A stretch of 64,000 nucleotides of DNA from Sulfurimonas crateris (lineage in GTDB: Bacteria; Campylobacterota; Campylobacteria; Campylobacterales; Sulfurimonadaceae), in assembly GCF_005217605.1 (NCBI RefSeq), contig NZ_SZPX01000007.1:62001-126000 (forward strand). The letters run 5' to 3'. The notes below the pieces were generated by a model. The model did no database searches, was not told the DNA's origin, and saw nothing but the letters and a program-made list of their open reading frames with translations. Shown here piece by piece: positions 45,412 through 52,686 of this stretch (within the stretch, counting starts at the first letter, position 1; each line of letters starts with the position of its first letter). A program made the position numbers and the translations under genes.

Positions 45412-45426
45412 GCTATAATTAGCCTA
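45409..45426 (+). promoter_or_regulatory. Possible leaderless promoter of addB
   Basis: TATAAT at 45414–45419 ends 6 bases before the addB ATG, so a transcript would start at or next to the A of ATG. The stretch is also a perfect hairpin, TAGGCTA-TAAT-TAGCCTA (45409–45426), and no ribosome site precedes the ATG. Confidence 0.5.
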
Positions 45427-47786
45427 TGAATGAATCTTTGATTGTCCTCCCTTCGGCTCGTGCAATAAGACAAAAACTCTTCCATATAGAGGGTTTAAGC
45501 CTATTTCTTCCAAACTATTCGACCATGAGTGATTTTATCTCAAAGCTCTGCATGGTAGAAGGTTTTAAAGCCCTCGATGAAGACGGCAGAGTCCTTCTGC
45601 TGCTTGAGGCGAGTGACTTTAAAAATTTCAAAAATCTTCAAATACAGAGAAACTTCTTTACCTTTACAAAAAACTCATCCTATATATTTAAATTTTTTGA
45701 AGAGCTGAGCGCAGAGAGATACAATATAAAAGCTCTCTCAACATCTGATATCTACGGAGAGTATGAGGAGCATATAACCATACTTGAAGAGCTTTACGGC
45801 AGGTATGAAGCACTATGCAGGGAGAGAAAGCTTTTGGATGGGATATTTCTGCCAAAACTCTACACTTTTAACGCACCGTTTGTCAAAAAGTATAAAAACA
45901 TAGAGCTTCACGTTGATGGCCATCTGACAAACTTCGAGCTTGAGCTTCTAGAGAGGTGTTGTGCGTTTAGCAGTGTCAATATTCTCTTTAGTGCGAGCAG
46001 ATTTAACACCAAGATGCAGAGAAAATTTTTAGAGATAGGCATAGATCTAGAGACAGGGTATAGATATAAAATTTCTCTCAATACAAAAGAAGTATTTCAC
46101 AAAGAGAGAATAGAGCAAAACACGAATGTGACATGCGACTCTTTTAGTGAACCTCTTTTGCAGGCTGCCTTTGTTAAAAAGAAGATATATGATTTTGTTA
46201 AAATGGGCTATAAGCCCCAAAATATTGCGGTAGTTTTGCCAGATGAGAAGTTTGCGCAGCTGCTTAGGTCTTTTGATGAAAAATCAAACTTCAACTTTGC
46301 CATGGGAGAGCCTTTTAGCATGGCTTTCATCTACGAGAAGCTGGATGCTACATGCAAGTACATTGAGCAGGACTCCAAAGAGAATGAAGCAAGACTAGAG
46401 AGAGTAGGGGATGAATTTTATATCCCGCTTCGCTCAATATATGCAAAAAAAAGCCAAGAGAGCGATATTTTAGAGTTTCTAAAGAGCTATAAAGAGAGTT
46501 TTTTACAAGGGAACAGAGCCACTAGAGCCGAACTTACTATTTTTGAGGAGGAGCTTTATGCTCTTAAAAATATTCTCCCATTTATGAGTGAGATGAGCGT
46601 TAAATCTCTACTTATGGTTTTTTTGCAAAGATTATCCAGCAGAACGATCGATGATGTAAGAGGCGGAAAGATAACAGTTATGGGTGTTTTGGAAACTCGT
46701 TCGGTAGAGTTTGATGCAGTGATAATCGTTGATTTCAGCGACTCAAACGTTCCTAAAAAGAGCGATAAAGATATGTTCTTAAACACAAATGTAAGAGAGG
46801 CGGCAAACCTGCCGACTATGAGTGATAGAGAGAATCTGCAAAAACATTACTACGAGATGCTTATAAACTCAAGCAAAGAGGTTGCAATATCTTTTGTCAA
46901 ATCCAAAGATAGCAGCGCTTCAAGATTTTTAAAACAGCTTGGCATAAAAGAGAAGAGCGTCTATGATGAAGACTCTTATGCTAGAGTACTCTTTGCAAAA
47001 GGCAACTCAAGGCTCAAAGAGGATGAGGATATTGTTTTGGAGTACAGTTTCAGAGGCAAAAACCTATCCGCTACAAGACTCAAAACATTTCTTACATGCA
47101 AGAGAAAATATTACTATCATTATGTAAAATCAATTCAAAATCACGAGATCCCAAAAGATATGCCAAAAGAGCATGAGATAGGCTCAGATGTTCACACAGC
47201 ACTAAAAGAGCTATACGCCAATAGAAGTTTTTACGAGAGTGCGGATGAGTTAAAGCGCGATCTGAATGCAGCGCTCAAAGATGCCTCCGGAGAGAGCGAG
47301 CTTGAAGAGTACCTAATGGCGATGCAAGCAAGACGTATGGAGGCTTTTTGCCAAAACGAGGTGAAGAGATTTGCGGACGGATGGAGAGTAGATCAGTGCG
47401 AAGTAACTCTTCAAGCCGAGTTTGCAGGCATGAGTATCAGCGGGCAGATAGACAGAGTGGACAGAAGAGGCAGCGATATATATGTTCTTGATTACAAGAC
47501 CGGCTCCTACCCTCTCTACAACGAGAAAAATTTTACCGAAGCAACAGATTTTCAACTGGAGTTTTACTACCTTTTGGCTCAAAAACTGGGCAATGTCGTC
47601 GGATGCGGATACTATGACCTTAAAGAGTCAAAAATAGTAGATGAACCGTTTTTAAGAGAAAAGCTCGGAGTCTTGGAGTCAAATATCAAAGACCTGCTAA
47701 ACATCGAAGATGTGAACTTTAGCAAGTGCGAAGAGGTTAAAAACTGCCAATTTTGCGAATATAAAATTATGTGTGGTAGAGAGTAG
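45426..47786 (+). CDS. addB: AddB-type helicase/nuclease subunit
   Basis: A 786-residue protein of the AddAB double-strand-break repair complex. Residues 1–540 form a degenerate UvrD-like helicase region that lacks a clear Walker A, as in many AddB; GKITVMGVLETRSVEFDAV matches the motif V region. The C-terminal PD-(D/E)xK nuclease shows GSDVHTALKELY, GQIDRVDR and VLDYKTGSY (catalytic Asp and Lys). Four cysteines, one in FLTCKRKYY and three in the tail (CEEVKNCQFCEYKIMCGRE contains them), fit the AddB [4Fe-4S] staple. addA is not adjacent: a two-gene cassette begins 2 bases after the stop. Confidence 0.9.
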   Translation: MNESLIVLPSARAIRQKLFHIEGLSLFLPNYSTMSDFISKLCMVEGFKALDEDGRVLLLLEASDFKNFKNLQIQRNFFTFTKNSSYIFKFFEELSAERYNIKALSTSDIYGEYEEHITILEELYGRYEALCRERKLLDGIFLPKLYTFNAPFVKKYKNIELHVDGHLTNFELELLERCCAFSSVNILFSASRFNTKMQRKFLEIGIDLETGYRYKISLNTKEVFHKERIEQNTNVTCDSFSEPLLQAAFVKKKIYDFVKMGYKPQNIAVVLPDEKFAQLLRSFDEKSNFNFAMGEPFSMAFIYEKLDATCKYIEQDSKENEARLERVGDEFYIPLRSIYAKKSQESDILEFLKSYKESFLQGNRATRAELTIFEEELYALKNILPFMSEMSVKSLLMVFLQRLSSRTIDDVRGGKITVMGVLETRSVEFDAVIIVDFSDSNVPKKSDKDMFLNTNVREAANLPTMSDRENLQKHYYEMLINSSKEVAISFVKSKDSSASRFLKQLGIKEKSVYDEDSYARVLFAKGNSRLKEDEDIVLEYSFRGKNLSATRLKTFLTCKRKYYYHYVKSIQNHEIPKDMPKEHEIGSDVHTALKELYANRSFYESADELKRDLNAALKDASGESELEEYLMAMQARRMEAFCQNEVKRFADGWRVDQCEVTLQAEFAGMSISGQIDRVDRRGSDIYVLDYKTGSYPLYNEKNFTEATDFQLEFYYLLAQKLGNVVGCGYYDLKESKIVDEPFLREKLGVLESNIKDLLNIEDVNFSKCEEVKNCQFCEYKIMCGRE

Positions 47787-47788
47787 AT

Positions 47789-49015
47789 ATGGCAAATCAA
47801 AGTGATATAAAAAAGTATTTAACTGATGGAGAAAATTCTTATTTAAATCAAGATAATCGTAATGGCGAAATACTTATGCTTAGTGGAGTTTGGGGAAGCG
47901 GAAAAACCCATTTTTGGAAAAAAGAGATAGAAAAAGAGCTTATTAAAGAGTTGAAAAAGAAAGGAAAAAGTTACATTTTTCTTAGTCTTTATGGTAAAGA
48001 TTCTATTGAAGAGTTGCAAAATGAGATATATCAATTTTCATATAATTTTTCTGTAGAAGATAGTAGTGATATTATAAGTTCGGCTTGTTCAGTTTTCACA
48101 AAAGTAACTAGTTTTATGCCTAAAGTTTCTATTTTTGGATTAGAAGTAGAATTAGCTGAAAGTGCTGAAAAAGTAGAAGCCGAGAATAATCAACAAAAGA
48201 TAAAAAAAGGGATAAAAAGTTTAATGGATGGCGGAGTTATTTGCTTTGATGATTTTGAGAGAAAGTCATCAAAGATAGATTTAAATGACTTGTTTGGTTT
48301 CATAACTAACTTAACGGAAGTGTTTAAAACAAAAACTATCATCATTACAAATCAAGAGTTTTTTAAAGAGAGAGACAGCGAAGTATTTAGCAGGATTAAA
48401 GAGAAAAGCGTAAATAAATTTTTACTTTTAGATCCTACGGTAGATGAGTTGTTTGAAACTATATATAAAGAAAAATATAGTGCTTTAGATGAGTATAAAG
48501 AAGTAATTTTAAAAGCTATAAAAATAACAGAAGAGAAAAATGCAAGAATATATATTCAAGTGTTAGATAATTGTTTGGAGTATAAAAGTCATGTGAAAGA
48601 AAAGAGTGAAATATTTCTTCTTGTTTTAATCACTGTTATATTTGTAAAATATAATCTTACCTTTAGAATGGAAAGTATCAAAGTGCGAGGCGGTATAGCG
48701 AGTCATGATAAATTCTTACCGAATATTGTAGAGCTCATTCCTAGTGCTATATTAGGTAAAATTGCTTTTAAAGCAGGTAGTCCAAAAATTATTAAAGCTA
48801 CTTTCATAGATAAATTAAGAAGAAGTATAGAGCAAAAAAATGAAAATAAAAAAGAAGAAAACCTAAAAGAAGATTTCCTGTTTATAGAAAATAATCAAGA
48901 CATGTTGTATCAGATATATAAATATAATGTAGAAACAGTGTATTTTAAAGAAGAGGATAAAGAGCTAATAGAAAAGCTAAATAACTTTGTAGAAAGCGGT
49001 ATATTAGAAAGTTAA
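47789..49015 (+). CDS. KAP-like P-loop NTPase inserted between addB and addA
   Basis: A 408-residue protein. Walker A is LSGVWGSGKTHFW (about residues 30–42), Walker B is GGVICFDDFERKSS (about 150–163) and IIIITNQEFF-like sequence TKTIIITNQEFF provides sensor 1; this resembles KAP/AAA-like STAND-related ATPases. A hydrophobic stretch (EIFLLVLITVIFVKY, about 270–285) may be a membrane or core helix. Codon use is far more AT-rich than addB and addA, a sign of transfer. It starts 2 bases after the addB stop, so it rides on addB translation. KAP ATPases occur in phage defence; a defence role here is inference. Confidence 0.8.
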   Translation: MANQSDIKKYLTDGENSYLNQDNRNGEILMLSGVWGSGKTHFWKKEIEKELIKELKKKGKSYIFLSLYGKDSIEELQNEIYQFSYNFSVEDSSDIISSACSVFTKVTSFMPKVSIFGLEVELAESAEKVEAENNQQKIKKGIKSLMDGGVICFDDFERKSSKIDLNDLFGFITNLTEVFKTKTIIITNQEFFKERDSEVFSRIKEKSVNKFLLLDPTVDELFETIYKEKYSALDEYKEVILKAIKITEEKNARIYIQVLDNCLEYKSHVKEKSEIFLLVLITVIFVKYNLTFRMESIKVRGGIASHDKFLPNIVELIPSAILGKIAFKAGSPKIIKATFIDKLRRSIEQKNENKKEENLKEDFLFIENNQDMLYQIYKYNVETVYFKEEDKELIEKLNNFVESGILES

Positions 49016-49066
49016 GCTTGTACATAATTTATTGTACAATAAACAACCAAAAGGAAAATAGAAATA

Positions 49067-49804
49067 ATGCCTGAAAATAATTACAGTGATTACATTATTT
49101 ATGTTGATGAAAGTGGTGACCACTCTCTGGATTCTATAAATCAAGAGTATCCTATATTTGTTTTGGCATTTTGTATTTTTAATAAACAAAACTATACGCA
49201 AAGTGCAGTAACAAAACTCAAAGATTTTAAGTTCAAGCATTTTGGTCACGATATGGTTGTATTGCATGAAAATGAGATTAGAAGAGATAAGAGTGTTTTT
49301 AAAACACTAAGACCAAAAAGTAAAAAAGATGCGTTTATTGAAGAATTAACTCAAATAATTGAAGAAGAAGATTTTACCGTAATAGCGACAGTTATTAAAA
49401 AAGATGAACTATATAGTAAGTTAAAAAACCCATATGATATAGCTCTGACATATTGTATGGAGAGAGCTCATAGATTTTTAAAATCAAAAGATCAAGACAT
49501 GAGAACAACACATATAATTGTTGAACAACGTGGCAAGAAGGAGGATGATGAACTTGAACTGGAGTTTAGAAGAATTTGTGATGGACAAAACTATAGCAAT
49601 ATAAATATGCCTTTTGAAATTATTATGGCAAATAAAATGAGTAATTCAGCAGGTTTGCAATTAGCTGATTTAATTGCACGCCCAATAGGACTAAGTGTTC
49701 TAAAGCCTAAGCAAGATAATCGAGCATTTGATATTATAAAAGATAAGTTTCACAGAAATGGTTTCGGAGAGGTTGATGGTGTTGGGCTTAAAGTATATCC
49801 ATAA
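49067..49804 (+). CDS. DUF3800 domain protein
   Basis: A 245-residue protein with the hallmarks of DUF3800, an RNase H-like fold: YIIYVDESGDHSL (first acidic residues) near the N-terminus, VVLHENEIRR in the middle, IIVEQRGKKEDDEL, and SNSAGLQLADLIARPIG near the C-terminus. Candidate catalytic acidic residues are intact. The family is often found on mobile elements and in defence islands. It lies 51 bases after the KAP-like gene with AAAGGAAAATAG before the ATG. In the same frame, 22 further codons (KQKSPDESARTFYRSRIRNP) follow the TAA before another stop, so the tail may have been cut. Confidence 0.85.
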   Translation: MPENNYSDYIIYVDESGDHSLDSINQEYPIFVLAFCIFNKQNYTQSAVTKLKDFKFKHFGHDMVVLHENEIRRDKSVFKTLRPKSKKDAFIEELTQIIEEEDFTVIATVIKKDELYSKLKNPYDIALTYCMERAHRFLKSKDQDMRTTHIIVEQRGKKEDDELELEFRRICDGQNYSNINMPFEIIMANKMSNSAGLQLADLIARPIGLSVLKPKQDNRAFDIIKDKFHRNGFGEVDGVGLKVYP

Positions 49805-49953
49805 AAGCAAAAAAGCCCTGACGAATCCGCCAGAACTTTTTACCGATCGCGAATCCGCAATCCAACACCATAATAGTACCATAATATTACAAATGGGTGT
49901 ATTATTTTTACTTTTTACTATATTTTTTAACAATAAAACAATAGAGAAGTGTA

Positions 49954-52686
49954 ATGCTTATAAATAATCTGGCATACGAGGCGAGTGCGGGGAGCGGAAA
50001 GACATTTATGCTTGTTGTACGCTATCTTAGCCTGCTTTTTAAGGGTGCTGAACCATCGAAGATACTCGCACTTACCTTTACCAACAAAGCCGCAAACGAG
50101 ATGCAGGAGAGGATAGTCCAAACGCTTGAAGAACTTGAACACAGAGGCGAACTTGATGAGATAGCCAAAGTTACCGAGCTATCACGTGAGTATCTGCTTG
50201 CCAACCGAAAAAGAGTTCTGGATGAGTTTTTAAACGCACATACGAAGATAATGACAATCGACAGCTTCTTTACGAAGATCCTTAGAAAATTCTCGCTCTA
50301 CGCCTCTTTGATGCCTGATTTCTCGACATTCAGCTCACAGCACGAACTAAAACTTCTCTCACGCTTTTTAAAAGAGGTAAGCGTTGCAGGTAAAAAAGAG
50401 ACGCTCATTACACTCTCTTTACAGTCAAATAAAAGGCTTACCGATATATTTTCCCTTTTAGACGAGTTCTATATAAAGTTTGCTGAGCTAAAGCATATCG
50501 AGTTTAAAAAGCAGGATTACAGAGAGTTTGAAAAGAGTGCCATGGGCAGCTTGGAGGAGCTTAAAAATATCATCTCTTTATGCAAAGATGCTTCAAGTAC
50601 GGCTATAAAGTCTGTTGAAGCACAAAATTTTGAAGAGCTGTGCGCAAAGGCTTGGATAGGAAGAGATACGCTGGAGTACAGTACTTTTAAGAAGTGTTTT
50701 ACGCCAGAGATGGATACTCTGCTCTTTAAGATAAAAGAGGCGATAAGAGAGCAAAACAGAGCAAAAGAGCAGAACTTCTTTTTTGCCATAAAAGAGCTTG
50801 TTGACATCTATGCAAAGAGCAAAAAAGCTCTCTATATGGATGACAGTGAGCTAAGTTTTAGCGATGTGACATATTTAGTTTATGAGATACTCAATCTGCT
50901 TGATGACAGCGAGTTTTTGTACTTTAGGCTGGATGCGCAGATAGAGCATATGCTGCTTGACGAGTTTCAAGATACCAGTATATTGCAGTATGAGATACTA
51001 AAACCGCTTATAAATGAGATAACCTCGGGTAAAGGCATCTTTGATAACGGAAGCTTCTTTTTTGTTGGAGATGTAAAGCAGTCCATCTATAGATTTCGCG
51101 GCGGGGTAAGCGCTCTTTTTGACGTGGTAAGAGAGCAGAACAATACAGATGTAGAGAAGCTTTTGACAAACTATCGTTCGCAAAAAGAGGTTGTGGAGTT
51201 TGTCAACAGAGTCTTTGAGCAGAGAATAAGAAATTACACGCCGCAACTTGTTAGAGACGGGGCTGATGGCGGTTATGTAGAAGTTGTACAAAATGATGAA
51301 CTCCTTGAAGAGGTTGTGGCACAGGTCAAGAGGCTTCTTGATATGGGAGCCCAAATAAACGAGATAGCAGTTCTTTGCGCTACTAACGGCGACGGGCAAG
51401 AGGTTGAGGGAGCTTTGCATGAGCAAAAAATAGATGTCGTAACCGAGACCACCACAAAGCTTATCAATCAAAATAGTGTTAAAGCAGTCCTTGAGTATCT
51501 GAAGTATCAATATTTCGGTGAAGAGATATACAAAGAGAACTTTTATGCGCTCATCTCACAGCAAGTGCGTCCTATAAAAAGAGCAGATTTTAATAAAACA
51601 ACAATCTTGGATATAGTCAAAGGCGCAATAGAGGAGTTCGGGCTTTTTAGCGATGACTTCAATCTTTTGAGATTTTTAAGCGCAATATCTCTTTACAGTG
51701 ATATAGAAGCGCTTCTGTTCGAGTATGAGAGAATGGATGTCAGCGCAGCTGCTTCGGAGTTAAACGGTGTTAGAGTACTTACTGTTCACAAGTCAAAAGG
51801 GCTGGAGTTTGAGCATGTCATAGTTATTGACAGGCTTAAAAAAGTACCTCCTTCTCGTGATGCAATCATCTACGAGTATGACGCTATTTTGCTAAAAAAT
51901 ATCTACCTGCGTATAAAAGGCAGAGACGGGGTTGATGAAGAGTATGCAAAAGCTCTTTTAAAAGAGAAAGCTCTTGTGAGAGAAGATACTTTGAATGCTC
52001 TGTATGTGGCTTTTACAAGAGCAAGAGAGAATCTCTTTGTAGTTTTAAAATCAAAAGACTCTATGTTTGATATTTTAGAGTTAAAAAAGCAGGTCTGCGG
52101 TAATTTGGTATGCCATGGAGCAGATAAAACAGGGGAAGAGAAGAGCATTACGCCACTGGAGTACACAGAGCTCTACTATGGAACTCAGAGCGATATTTTG
52201 AGTCTTGAGAAGGTTCAGGATGATGATCTTAGATCTATAAACTTTGGAATAGCACTCCACTATATGCTTGAGATGCTCCCAGAGTTTGATATAGCAAGCA
52301 TTCCTGGTGCAAAAGCTATGATGATAAACAAGTACGGCGACATCTTGGAGGATGAAGAGATAGAAGATATGCAGCGCAGAGTAGAGATGCTTCTTGATAG
52401 CAGTGAGTTTCTCTCTTTGATAGATGGGGAGTGTTACAGAGAAAAGGCGATAAGATACAAAAAAAATCTCAAATATATAGATCTGTTGGTAAGGGAGAAC
52501 TCAAAAAAAGGGTCTCTTTTTGCAAGCTGGAATATCATCGATTATAAGAGCTCTTTTTCACACCATGAGGAACATATCTCTCAAGTCGGCTCCTATGTGA
52601 GAGCAATTAAAGAGATAACCGCAGAGGATGCCCAGGGGTATATATGCTATCTCCTAAAAGATAGCGTTAAGATCAGCAAGATCTAA
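49954..52686 (+). CDS. addA: AddA/RecB-type helicase-nuclease
   Basis: A 910-residue superfamily 1A helicase with C-terminal nuclease. Helicase motifs: I EASAGSGKTFMLVVRY, Ia LALTFTNKAANEMQERI, II MLLDEFQDTS, III FFVGDVKQSIYRFRGG, IV LLTNYRSQKEVVEF, V VRVLTVHKSKGLEFEHVI and VI NALYVAFTRARENL. The nuclease centre is WNIIDYKSS near residue 865. With AddB it resects DNA ends for RecA. It is shorter than Bacillus AddA (about 1,230). The stop overlaps the convergent GGDEF gene by 4 bases. Confidence 0.92.
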   Translation: MLINNLAYEASAGSGKTFMLVVRYLSLLFKGAEPSKILALTFTNKAANEMQERIVQTLEELEHRGELDEIAKVTELSREYLLANRKRVLDEFLNAHTKIMTIDSFFTKILRKFSLYASLMPDFSTFSSQHELKLLSRFLKEVSVAGKKETLITLSLQSNKRLTDIFSLLDEFYIKFAELKHIEFKKQDYREFEKSAMGSLEELKNIISLCKDASSTAIKSVEAQNFEELCAKAWIGRDTLEYSTFKKCFTPEMDTLLFKIKEAIREQNRAKEQNFFFAIKELVDIYAKSKKALYMDDSELSFSDVTYLVYEILNLLDDSEFLYFRLDAQIEHMLLDEFQDTSILQYEILKPLINEITSGKGIFDNGSFFFVGDVKQSIYRFRGGVSALFDVVREQNNTDVEKLLTNYRSQKEVVEFVNRVFEQRIRNYTPQLVRDGADGGYVEVVQNDELLEEVVAQVKRLLDMGAQINEIAVLCATNGDGQEVEGALHEQKIDVVTETTTKLINQNSVKAVLEYLKYQYFGEEIYKENFYALISQQVRPIKRADFNKTTILDIVKGAIEEFGLFSDDFNLLRFLSAISLYSDIEALLFEYERMDVSAAASELNGVRVLTVHKSKGLEFEHVIVIDRLKKVPPSRDAIIYEYDAILLKNIYLRIKGRDGVDEEYAKALLKEKALVREDTLNALYVAFTRARENLFVVLKSKDSMFDILELKKQVCGNLVCHGADKTGEEKSITPLEYTELYYGTQSDILSLEKVQDDDLRSINFGIALHYMLEMLPEFDIASIPGAKAMMINKYGDILEDEEIEDMQRRVEMLLDSSEFLSLIDGECYREKAIRYKKNLKYIDLLVRENSKKGSLFASWNIIDYKSSFSHHEEHISQVGSYVRAIKEITAEDAQGYICYLLKDSVKISKI

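Follow-up and report, generated by a model that had tools for sequence, protein, structure and literature searches.

Proteins that are accompanied by a convergent or folded RNA are known from several described systems. The type I toxin–antitoxin loci txpA/RatA and bsrG/SR4 carry a convergent RNA, and ToxIN and CptIN represent the type III toxin–antitoxin systems. The series of DUF3800 RNA motifs in Rfam runs up to -XI. At the core defence hotspots of Pseudomonas aeruginosa, conserved flanks reportedly enclose exchanged defence cargo. These hotspots have been described in a dedicated study (PMC10250203), and DUF3800-I and -IX are named among the Rfam motifs (PMC11701678). DUF3800 proteins have been linked to RNAs, with an RNase H fold predicted for another member of the family (PMC10910872), and DUF3800 genes occur as accessories of CRISPR loci (PMC10910872, PMC12669027). 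Here, a locus of Sulfurimonas crateris is compared with these systems. It lies in a stretch of 64,000 nucleotides (the window; assembly GCF_005217605.1, contig NZ_SZPX01000007.1, positions 62,001 to 126,000), where a KAP-like NTPase gene and a DUF3800 gene stand between addB and addA. The seeming spacer behind the DUF3800 gene (positions 49805–49868 of the window), which was overlooked in an earlier note on this DNA, corresponds, on the minus strand, to an RNA of conserved structure. The DUF3800 gene and the elements of the predicted small RNA gene are as follows.

49067–49804, plus strand: DUF3800 gene, 245 residues, predicted RNase H-fold nuclease (Pfam score and conserved acidic residues, given below)
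49805–49868, minus strand: small RNA gene facing DUF3800, about 65 nt, read from 49868 to 49805 (R1 and R2 models; 5' end guessed)
49845–49862, minus strand: conserved 5' hairpin of the small RNA, helix 1 of alignment A8 (98.1% of cells paired; 4 of 7 pairs changed on both sides)
49810–49841, minus strand: intrinsic terminator of the small RNA, with its T-run at the DUF3800 stop (14 pairs; shuffle mean 0.2)
49870–49875, minus strand: candidate -10 box TATTAT of the small RNA (fixed-place promoter scan)

This arrangement resembles type I toxin–antitoxin loci in that a convergent small RNA is located at the end of the partner gene. The type I partner is a small hydrophobic peptide, whereas the locus described here combines a 245-residue nuclease-like DUF3800 protein with an RNA of conserved fold. 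Type III systems share with this locus the presumed restraint of a nuclease by a folded RNA, but tandem RNA repeats lie upstream there, and two different hairpins lie downstream in convergent orientation here. The Rfam DUF3800 RNA motifs are also structured RNAs linked to DUF3800 genes (PMC10910872). No Rfam DUF3800 family appeared among the Rfam matches of the scanned loci, which did not include L221, L228, L239, L242–L244 and G426 (L and G numbers denote loci and genomes, respectively). The best sub-threshold Rfam matches, to PsrR1 (E 0.071, L093) and BjrC68 (E 0.57 in L225 and 0.75 in L223) on the antisense strand, are taken as chance hairpin-terminator likeness, with kinship possible. The small RNA, its strand and its convergent structure were not found in the scans of Rfam 15 or in the open-licence papers that the literature searches listed, and an earlier description is possible. 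The general link between DUF3800 and RNA is already known; the facing small RNA gene is new here.

The bases after the DUF3800 stop recur after DUF3800 genes in other loci in blast comparisons, and the same layout past the stop was recognized by eye in the first twelve plasmid and phage loci. A sense-strand covariance model (R1; 19 pairs), built from ten of these sites, all proteobacterial, recovers the window (49805–49868, 35.1 bits) and six Campylobacterota sites unaided. Among 298 Campylobacterota genomes, R1 detected five sites beside DUF3800, one of which is a broken copy (G325), and one marginal extra match (G272, E 0.085). The site of G014 (L097), which has a more distant DUF3800, was missed by this genome scan with its stricter filter and was detected by R1 in a direct locus scan. 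For 21 corresponding pairs in the ten model sequences, the paired share on the sense strand is 81.3% of 209 cells, without any G-U, whereas on the antisense strand it is 206 of 206 cells, with about 35 G-U pairs. The small RNA was placed on the antisense strand because C-A mismatches of the sense strand become G-U pairs there, and the first model, a hairpin in the sense-strand 3' untranslated region, was ruled out on the same ground. The antisense model (R2; 21 pairs) matches the window at 49805–49865 on the minus strand with 45.6 bits (E 8e-8). It yields 25 matches in 30 loci, ten of them model sequences, with one match beside each DUF3800 gene of the closer clade (84% to 32% identity), which comprises Campylobacterota, Proteobacteria and two phages; no match was obtained in the five loci with distant DUF3800 genes (L098, L218, L240, L241 and L245). 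R2 outscores R1 in 12 of 14 loci outside the models and scores lower in L242 and L244, with L228 omitted as a near-copy of L225; the two scores are not strictly comparable owing to the different pair numbers, and L242–L244 closely resemble model sequences.

The fold is highly conserved in alignment A8, which contains 22 distinct rows. In A8, 98.9% of 449 cells are paired, and 15 of 21 pairs display two-sided changes (70 such cells); these values were reached by none of 500 shuffles, which ignore relatedness, in an alignment fitted to the structure. On the antisense strand, a T-run comes after the second hairpin, which was called as a terminator in the window. When the 70 bases upstream of the conserved stretch were scanned, the best -35/-10 pair ended 9–10 bases before it in 12 of 17 loci, as exemplified by TTGTCA-N17-CATAAT in L219 and TTGATG-N17-TATAAT in L221. 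With the promoter place fixed beforehand, 25 loci have a mean of about 8.2 matches to the 12 hexamer positions, compared to 5.7 in shuffles; seven or fewer matches were counted in the window, L094, L224, L225, L226 and L239. The window sequence has no good -35 box and does not beat its own shuffles, and its -10 box is absent from the list of the terminator scan. DUF3800 and the small RNA gene converge, and in some loci the RNA extends into the last part of the reading frame. Comparative analysis thus establishes the existence, strand, fold, terminator and DUF3800 linkage of the predicted small RNA. A sequence-pattern search returned the five DUF3800 sites and six extra matches in five genomes, compared to three matches in two genomes for the reversed control; the six extra matches all lie inside open reading frames (ORFs) of at least 200 residues and were taken as chance. 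The exact RNA pattern was not found in viral contigs. A short minus-strand peptide within the RNA was rejected by eye, as no consistent stop was seen and the frame enters the terminator.

The RNA and DUF3800 genes differ in their persistence. Each of the 19 loci with an intact DUF3800 gene containing the DESG motif also contains the RNA (19/19). Plasmid p2METDI of Methylorubrum extorquens DM4 is the source of one intact locus (L222). The RNA is also retained where DUF3800 is broken, truncated or frame-shifted (L096, L238, L239, L242 and L244; L229, open over the match but without an early start, was not counted), and with G426 it persists in six loci whose DUF3800 is broken or gone. R2, run on the 135 Sulfurimonas genomes, gave three sites, which lie in G000, G133 and G426. 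In G426, the RNA stands directly before addA behind a TTGTCA-N17-TATAAT box, and no DUF3800 was found there beyond a non-significant ten-residue likeness to its C-terminus (E 0.24–0.26). A 463-residue protein without a Pfam match adjoins the orphan RNA at this junction (L266:1610-3001).

The DUF3800 protein of the window scores 79.3 bits against PF12686, above the gathering score of 21. In a 19-row alignment, residues D14, G17, H67 and D201 are invariant, and E15, E153, E159 and D160 are nearly so. DUF3800 matches were obtained in 7 of 298 Campylobacterota genomes, 4 of 135 Sulfurimonas genomes, 48 plasmid records (E 0.001) and three phage records, including twelve plasmid or phage loci whose proteins share 46–52% identity with that of the window. 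Viral contigs contained no close relative of either DUF3800 or the NTPase, searches of solved structures gave no match at E 0.1 or better, and two DUF3800-plus-RNA queries had no DNA-level match in E. coli genomes. In L094, a type I S gene borders DUF3800 on one side and a candidate R gene on the other. Positions adjacent to a phage repressor often hold genes that are expressed in lysogens. DUF3800 and the RNA abut an S24-type repressor gene in the Pseudomonas phage JBD68 (L226:2306-3777, gp44-gp43), where they are a possible lysogen-expressed exclusion gene, and in Pkon1, the position one gene downstream of a CI-like repressor is taken by DUF3800. A PemK/MazF-type toxin gene begins no more than about 20 bases downstream of a distantly related DUF3800-like gene in each of two elements of Lactobacillales (L240:1947-3262 and L241:1824-3136).

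A working model can be proposed in which the insert between addB and addA consists of two independent cargo pieces, a solo KAP-like NTPase gene and a DUF3800 gene with its convergent small RNA gene. DUF3800 would act as an effector of the nuclease type, with the folded small RNA holding or directing its activity, and the pair, addiction- or defence-like, would spread on plasmids, phages and chromosomal cargo sites. An RNA-controlled nuclease effector is favoured by the conserved acidic residues, the repressor-adjacent phage loci and the restriction context of L094, and we consider the model as a whole somewhat probable. The decay pattern resembles that expected of a toxin and its antidote, in which the harmful protein never occurs without its RNA and the RNA sometimes occurs alone. 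A broader proposal is made more tentatively, namely that DUF3800 and its dedicated convergent two-hairpin RNA could belong to a class of RNA-controlled nuclease systems that has not been named before: a mobile element, shared by different phyla and by plasmids and phages, that acts in addiction or against phages and whose RNA either restrains the nuclease until infection or directs it. In the model, we infer transcription and promoter use of the RNA, its contact with the protein, nuclease activity, which of the partners is harmful, and any action on phages.

Several observations weigh against the model and give room to other explanations of the RNA. The best promoter pair of the predicted small RNA beats shuffles at the 5% level in only 7 of 17 loci, none of which is among the six Campylobacterota loci including the window. 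This weak promoter evidence in Campylobacterota would suit an element that is only a terminator or a DNA-level palindrome at the end of DUF3800. One of the hairpins is indeed a terminator, and covariation of such a hairpin is expected in any terminator, so the case for a special fold depends on helices 1 and 2. The other hairpin is nevertheless also kept across phyla with two-sided changes, G-U pairs on one strand against mismatches on the other argue for a single-stranded RNA, and the best promoter-like pair lies at the same distance in 12 of 17 loci; a terminator or palindrome alone is therefore very unlikely. The convergent orientation and the overlap with the reading-frame end in some loci could also suggest a mere antisense regulator of the DUF3800 mRNA, as in convergent type I toxin–antitoxin loci. 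A conserved fold is needless for a plain antisense RNA, yet the pairs are maintained through two-sided changes, and cognate pairing with the DUF3800 start region, the one region examined, is stronger than the mean of shuffles in only 6 of the 16 loci, which makes such a role improbable. The model also draws its RNase H fold from the literature, as a single-sequence AlphaFold2 prediction of DUF3800 reached a pLDDT of only 36; the prediction for the NTPase reached 38. The decay asymmetry is biased because most loci were found via DUF3800, and some of the breaks may be sequencing errors. Finally, the polarity may be opposite, with a harmful small RNA and a DUF3800 protector that cuts or sequesters it. 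This alternative was retained because a Legionella accessory DUF3800 gene, of this clade or of another, scored as essential in transposon sequencing (Tn-seq; PMC7811196), which points to DUF3800 as the protector, and because the two distant Lactobacillales DUF3800 genes directly precede a PemK/MazF toxin gene, an antitoxin-like place. The alternative is unlikely given that the RNA stands beside five broken DUF3800 genes and that, with a good promoter match, it stands in Sulfurimonas G426, where DUF3800 was not found.

The earlier note had interpreted the NTPase and DUF3800 genes as one defence module that guards or exploits AddAB, and the surroundings of the two genes bear on this interpretation.

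45426–47786, plus strand: addB-type nuclease gene, left flank of the hotspot (Pfam PDDEXK_1, E 7e-37)
47789–49015, plus strand: KAP-like P-loop NTPase, 408 residues, solo candidate defence gene (Pfam, PADLOC PDC-S49, Walker A conservation)
49954–52686, plus strand: addA/RecB-like helicase gene, right flank of the hotspot (NCBIfam RecB-like helicase, 1070 bits)

ORF coordinates agree with the note in that both genes split addB from addA, with the NTPase ATG two bases past the addB TAG. The motifs that it had listed are present in the translations (Walker A GVWGSGKT, Walker B-like ICFDDFE and VDESGD), its KAP_NTPase and DUF3800 calls are borne out by Pfam, and the insert is AT-rich relative to both neighbours (GC 26–30% within the insert and about 37–45% in the surroundings). 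The addB_alphas profile of NCBIfam matches AddB far under its cut-off, and the insert stretch has one match within its own genome. The adjacency, shared strand and AT-richness of the two genes are consistent with a single module, and antagonism of RecBCD is reportedly answered by retron Ec48 and by OLD (PMC12407980). When KAP–DUF3800 neighbours were sought in other genomes, as the note had advised, both proteins were matched (E 0.001) in the window's genome alone, among 298 genomes of Campylobacterota and likewise among 135 of Sulfurimonas, and a single unit was rejected on this co-occurrence. The G107 and G138 junctions contain the NTPase without DUF3800, and the G133 junction contains DUF3800 without the NTPase. 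In the loci read, mostly with about 1.5 kb per side, the NTPase neighbours are other genes and never DUF3800, which travels with the small RNA instead. No evidence was found for guarding of AddAB, and other cargo types share the site. A joint module guarding or exploiting AddAB is thus highly improbable, and by sequence comparison, the NTPase and DUF3800 genes are independent cargo pieces. Foreign defence-type cargo at a variable site is the part of the earlier interpretation that stands, and the union of the two genes in one module is the part that does not.

The NTPase scores above the KAP_NTPase gathering score (PF07693, 26.1 bits; cut-off 20). Its PADLOC PDC-S49 match (E 2e-28, residues 3–265) covers only profile positions 5–252 of 624 and is not full-length. 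The NTPase shares the Walker motifs and similarity over the N-terminal 260 residues with PDC-S49/KAP NTPases, which include PifA, but is 408 residues long, compared to about 620. Tmn is described with two transmembrane segments (PMC11846954), whereas the window NTPase lacks a clear one in a simple hydropathy scan, in which the best 19-residue value ranges from 1.33 to 2.26 in 12 homologues and is located at residue 274 in the window and elsewhere in the others. Walker A is conserved across the 12 aligned homologues. NTPase matches at E 0.001 are found in 44 of 298 Campylobacterota genomes, 11 of which, including the window's, match at E <1e-50, and in 16 of 135 Sulfurimonas genomes. The full-length gene occupies the addB–addA junction in the window, G138 (where the second Walker B aspartate is a tyrosine) and G107, and a 29-residue remnant in G105 lies two bases after addB, as the NTPase does in the window and G107. 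Elsewhere, the NTPase was seen by eye downstream of thioredoxin-like (L003–L005) and IspG-like (L007) genes and next to an AbiEii-like gene (L010). It adjoins DNA methylase genes in L103 and L114, both from genome G478, as judged from methylase domains, of which that of L103 is just under the cut-off. The NTPase is regarded as a solo candidate defence gene. As a separate observation, it lies downstream of a hypD-like gene (by eye) in L008, L012 and L104, with a small ORF in between in L104, and L008 and L104 also have a hypE-like gene a short way downstream; the hypD-adjacent position may be a second NTPase cargo site. An ATPase gene fragment that is RloC-like by eye is also found near the NTPase and DNA methylase gene of L114 (L114:1-992).

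The addB–addA junction was compared among relatives, as had been proposed in the earlier note, and both empty sites and many alternative cassettes were found. Junctions were taken from 60 genomes, 49 of the same genus, and from named records, which were assigned to the genus when the first 300 AddA residues were at least 60% identical. Removal of duplicates with identical addA starts left 53 junctions with both genes; exclusion of L175, whose genus is uncertain (60-residue match), left 52, and addition of L121 (a longer copy of L035), the window and G426 gave 55. These 55 Sulfurimonas junctions comprise 27 empty sites (at most 20 bp), 6 short inserts (71–295 bp) and 22 cargo inserts (466–6734 bp, or 0.5–6.7 kb). 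Fifteen more distinct loci, L035 among them, lack addB in the stretch because of contig ends, long inserts or moved genes. In 19 large inserts, 48 of 50 ORFs of at least 100 residues run in the addB–addA direction, and the GC content is below that of the addA start in 19 of 19 cases (means of 29% and 39%). As a control, which is lenient given the conserved operon, the ccoN–ccoO (15–18 bp) and ccoO–ccoP (219–249 bp) junctions were constant in 40 of 40 cases from 20 hand-picked genomes. The largest addB–addA gap in other genera of the family is 274 bp (11 junctions, L081–L091), and a more distant locus, L149, has a small insert of two genes. Shared flanks, swapped cargo and empty sites among relatives thus identify the addB–addA junction, at the sequence level, as a cargo hotspot in Sulfurimonas. 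Core defence hotspots of P. aeruginosa likewise combine shared flanks with swapped cargo; the site described here differs in that it splits the addB–addA pair and belongs to Sulfurimonas, and no paper on it was found in the open-licence literature searched. Five of the six short inserts contain a VF530-type gene (one by Pfam and four by eye), and the sixth is the 71-bp insert. A small VF530-family gene lies directly before addA in L038, L042, L120, L123 and L128 and in several cargo loci; this gene occurs alone or next to larger cargo and may be a long-standing occupant of the junction.

Restriction, candidate-defence or toxin–antitoxin genes, at least one per locus, are present in 17 of the 22 cargo loci according to our own annotation (representatives scanned, others by eye), the five others being L047, L062, L144, L169 and G426. 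Twenty hand-picked cargo proteins were run against PADLOC and Pfam. At E 0.001, PADLOC matched 16 of them, one only at 8e-4, with no background set as a comparison. The remaining four are two proteins of L032 and two McrC-like proteins, the latter matching Pfam McrBC. PADLOC matches alone are weak proof, as AddA and AddB themselves match the PADLOC GajB and Cas4 models. The PADLOC and Pfam searches assigned the following cargo.

L032: C5 DNA methylase
L034 and L049: PDC-S01 ATPases
L034: PDC-M62/Septu-like pair and PDC-S02
L039 and L064: McrC- and McrB-like proteins
L049: GmrSD
L129: type IIG enzyme and Schlafen-type protein
L048 (addB outside the stretch): HipA
L173 (addB outside the stretch): DrmD-like helicase with TmtA

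Ten smaller cargo proteins correspond to an MNT-type nucleotidyltransferase, HepT, MqsR, MqsA, Bro-N, PemK, VF530, T5orf172/MUG113, an IS200-type transposase and ORF6N. By eye, G426 contains molybdo-protein-like and cytochrome-like genes, and L047 contains a lipoprotein-like ORF on the opposite strand. A four-gene set recurs in L032 (183-5542) and L033 and encodes a C5 methylase, a protein with two HATPase domains, a response-regulator-like protein and a metallophosphatase; PADLOC matches within the L032 set are limited to the methylase and, as a marginal case, the HATPase protein (MzaB, 8e-4). To our knowledge, McrBC, GmrSD, type IIG and MqsRA cargo have no link to AddAB, and the junction may therefore simply be a tolerated, co-directional landing place.

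For Sulfurimonas, the addB–addA junction provides a cargo site that can be mined for further defence-type genes. For the DUF3800 family, a compact, strand-resolved predicted RNA gene accompanies every intact closer-clade DUF3800 gene examined, including those of phages and of plasmids from harmless bacteria, which would make a protein–RNA partnership directly testable.

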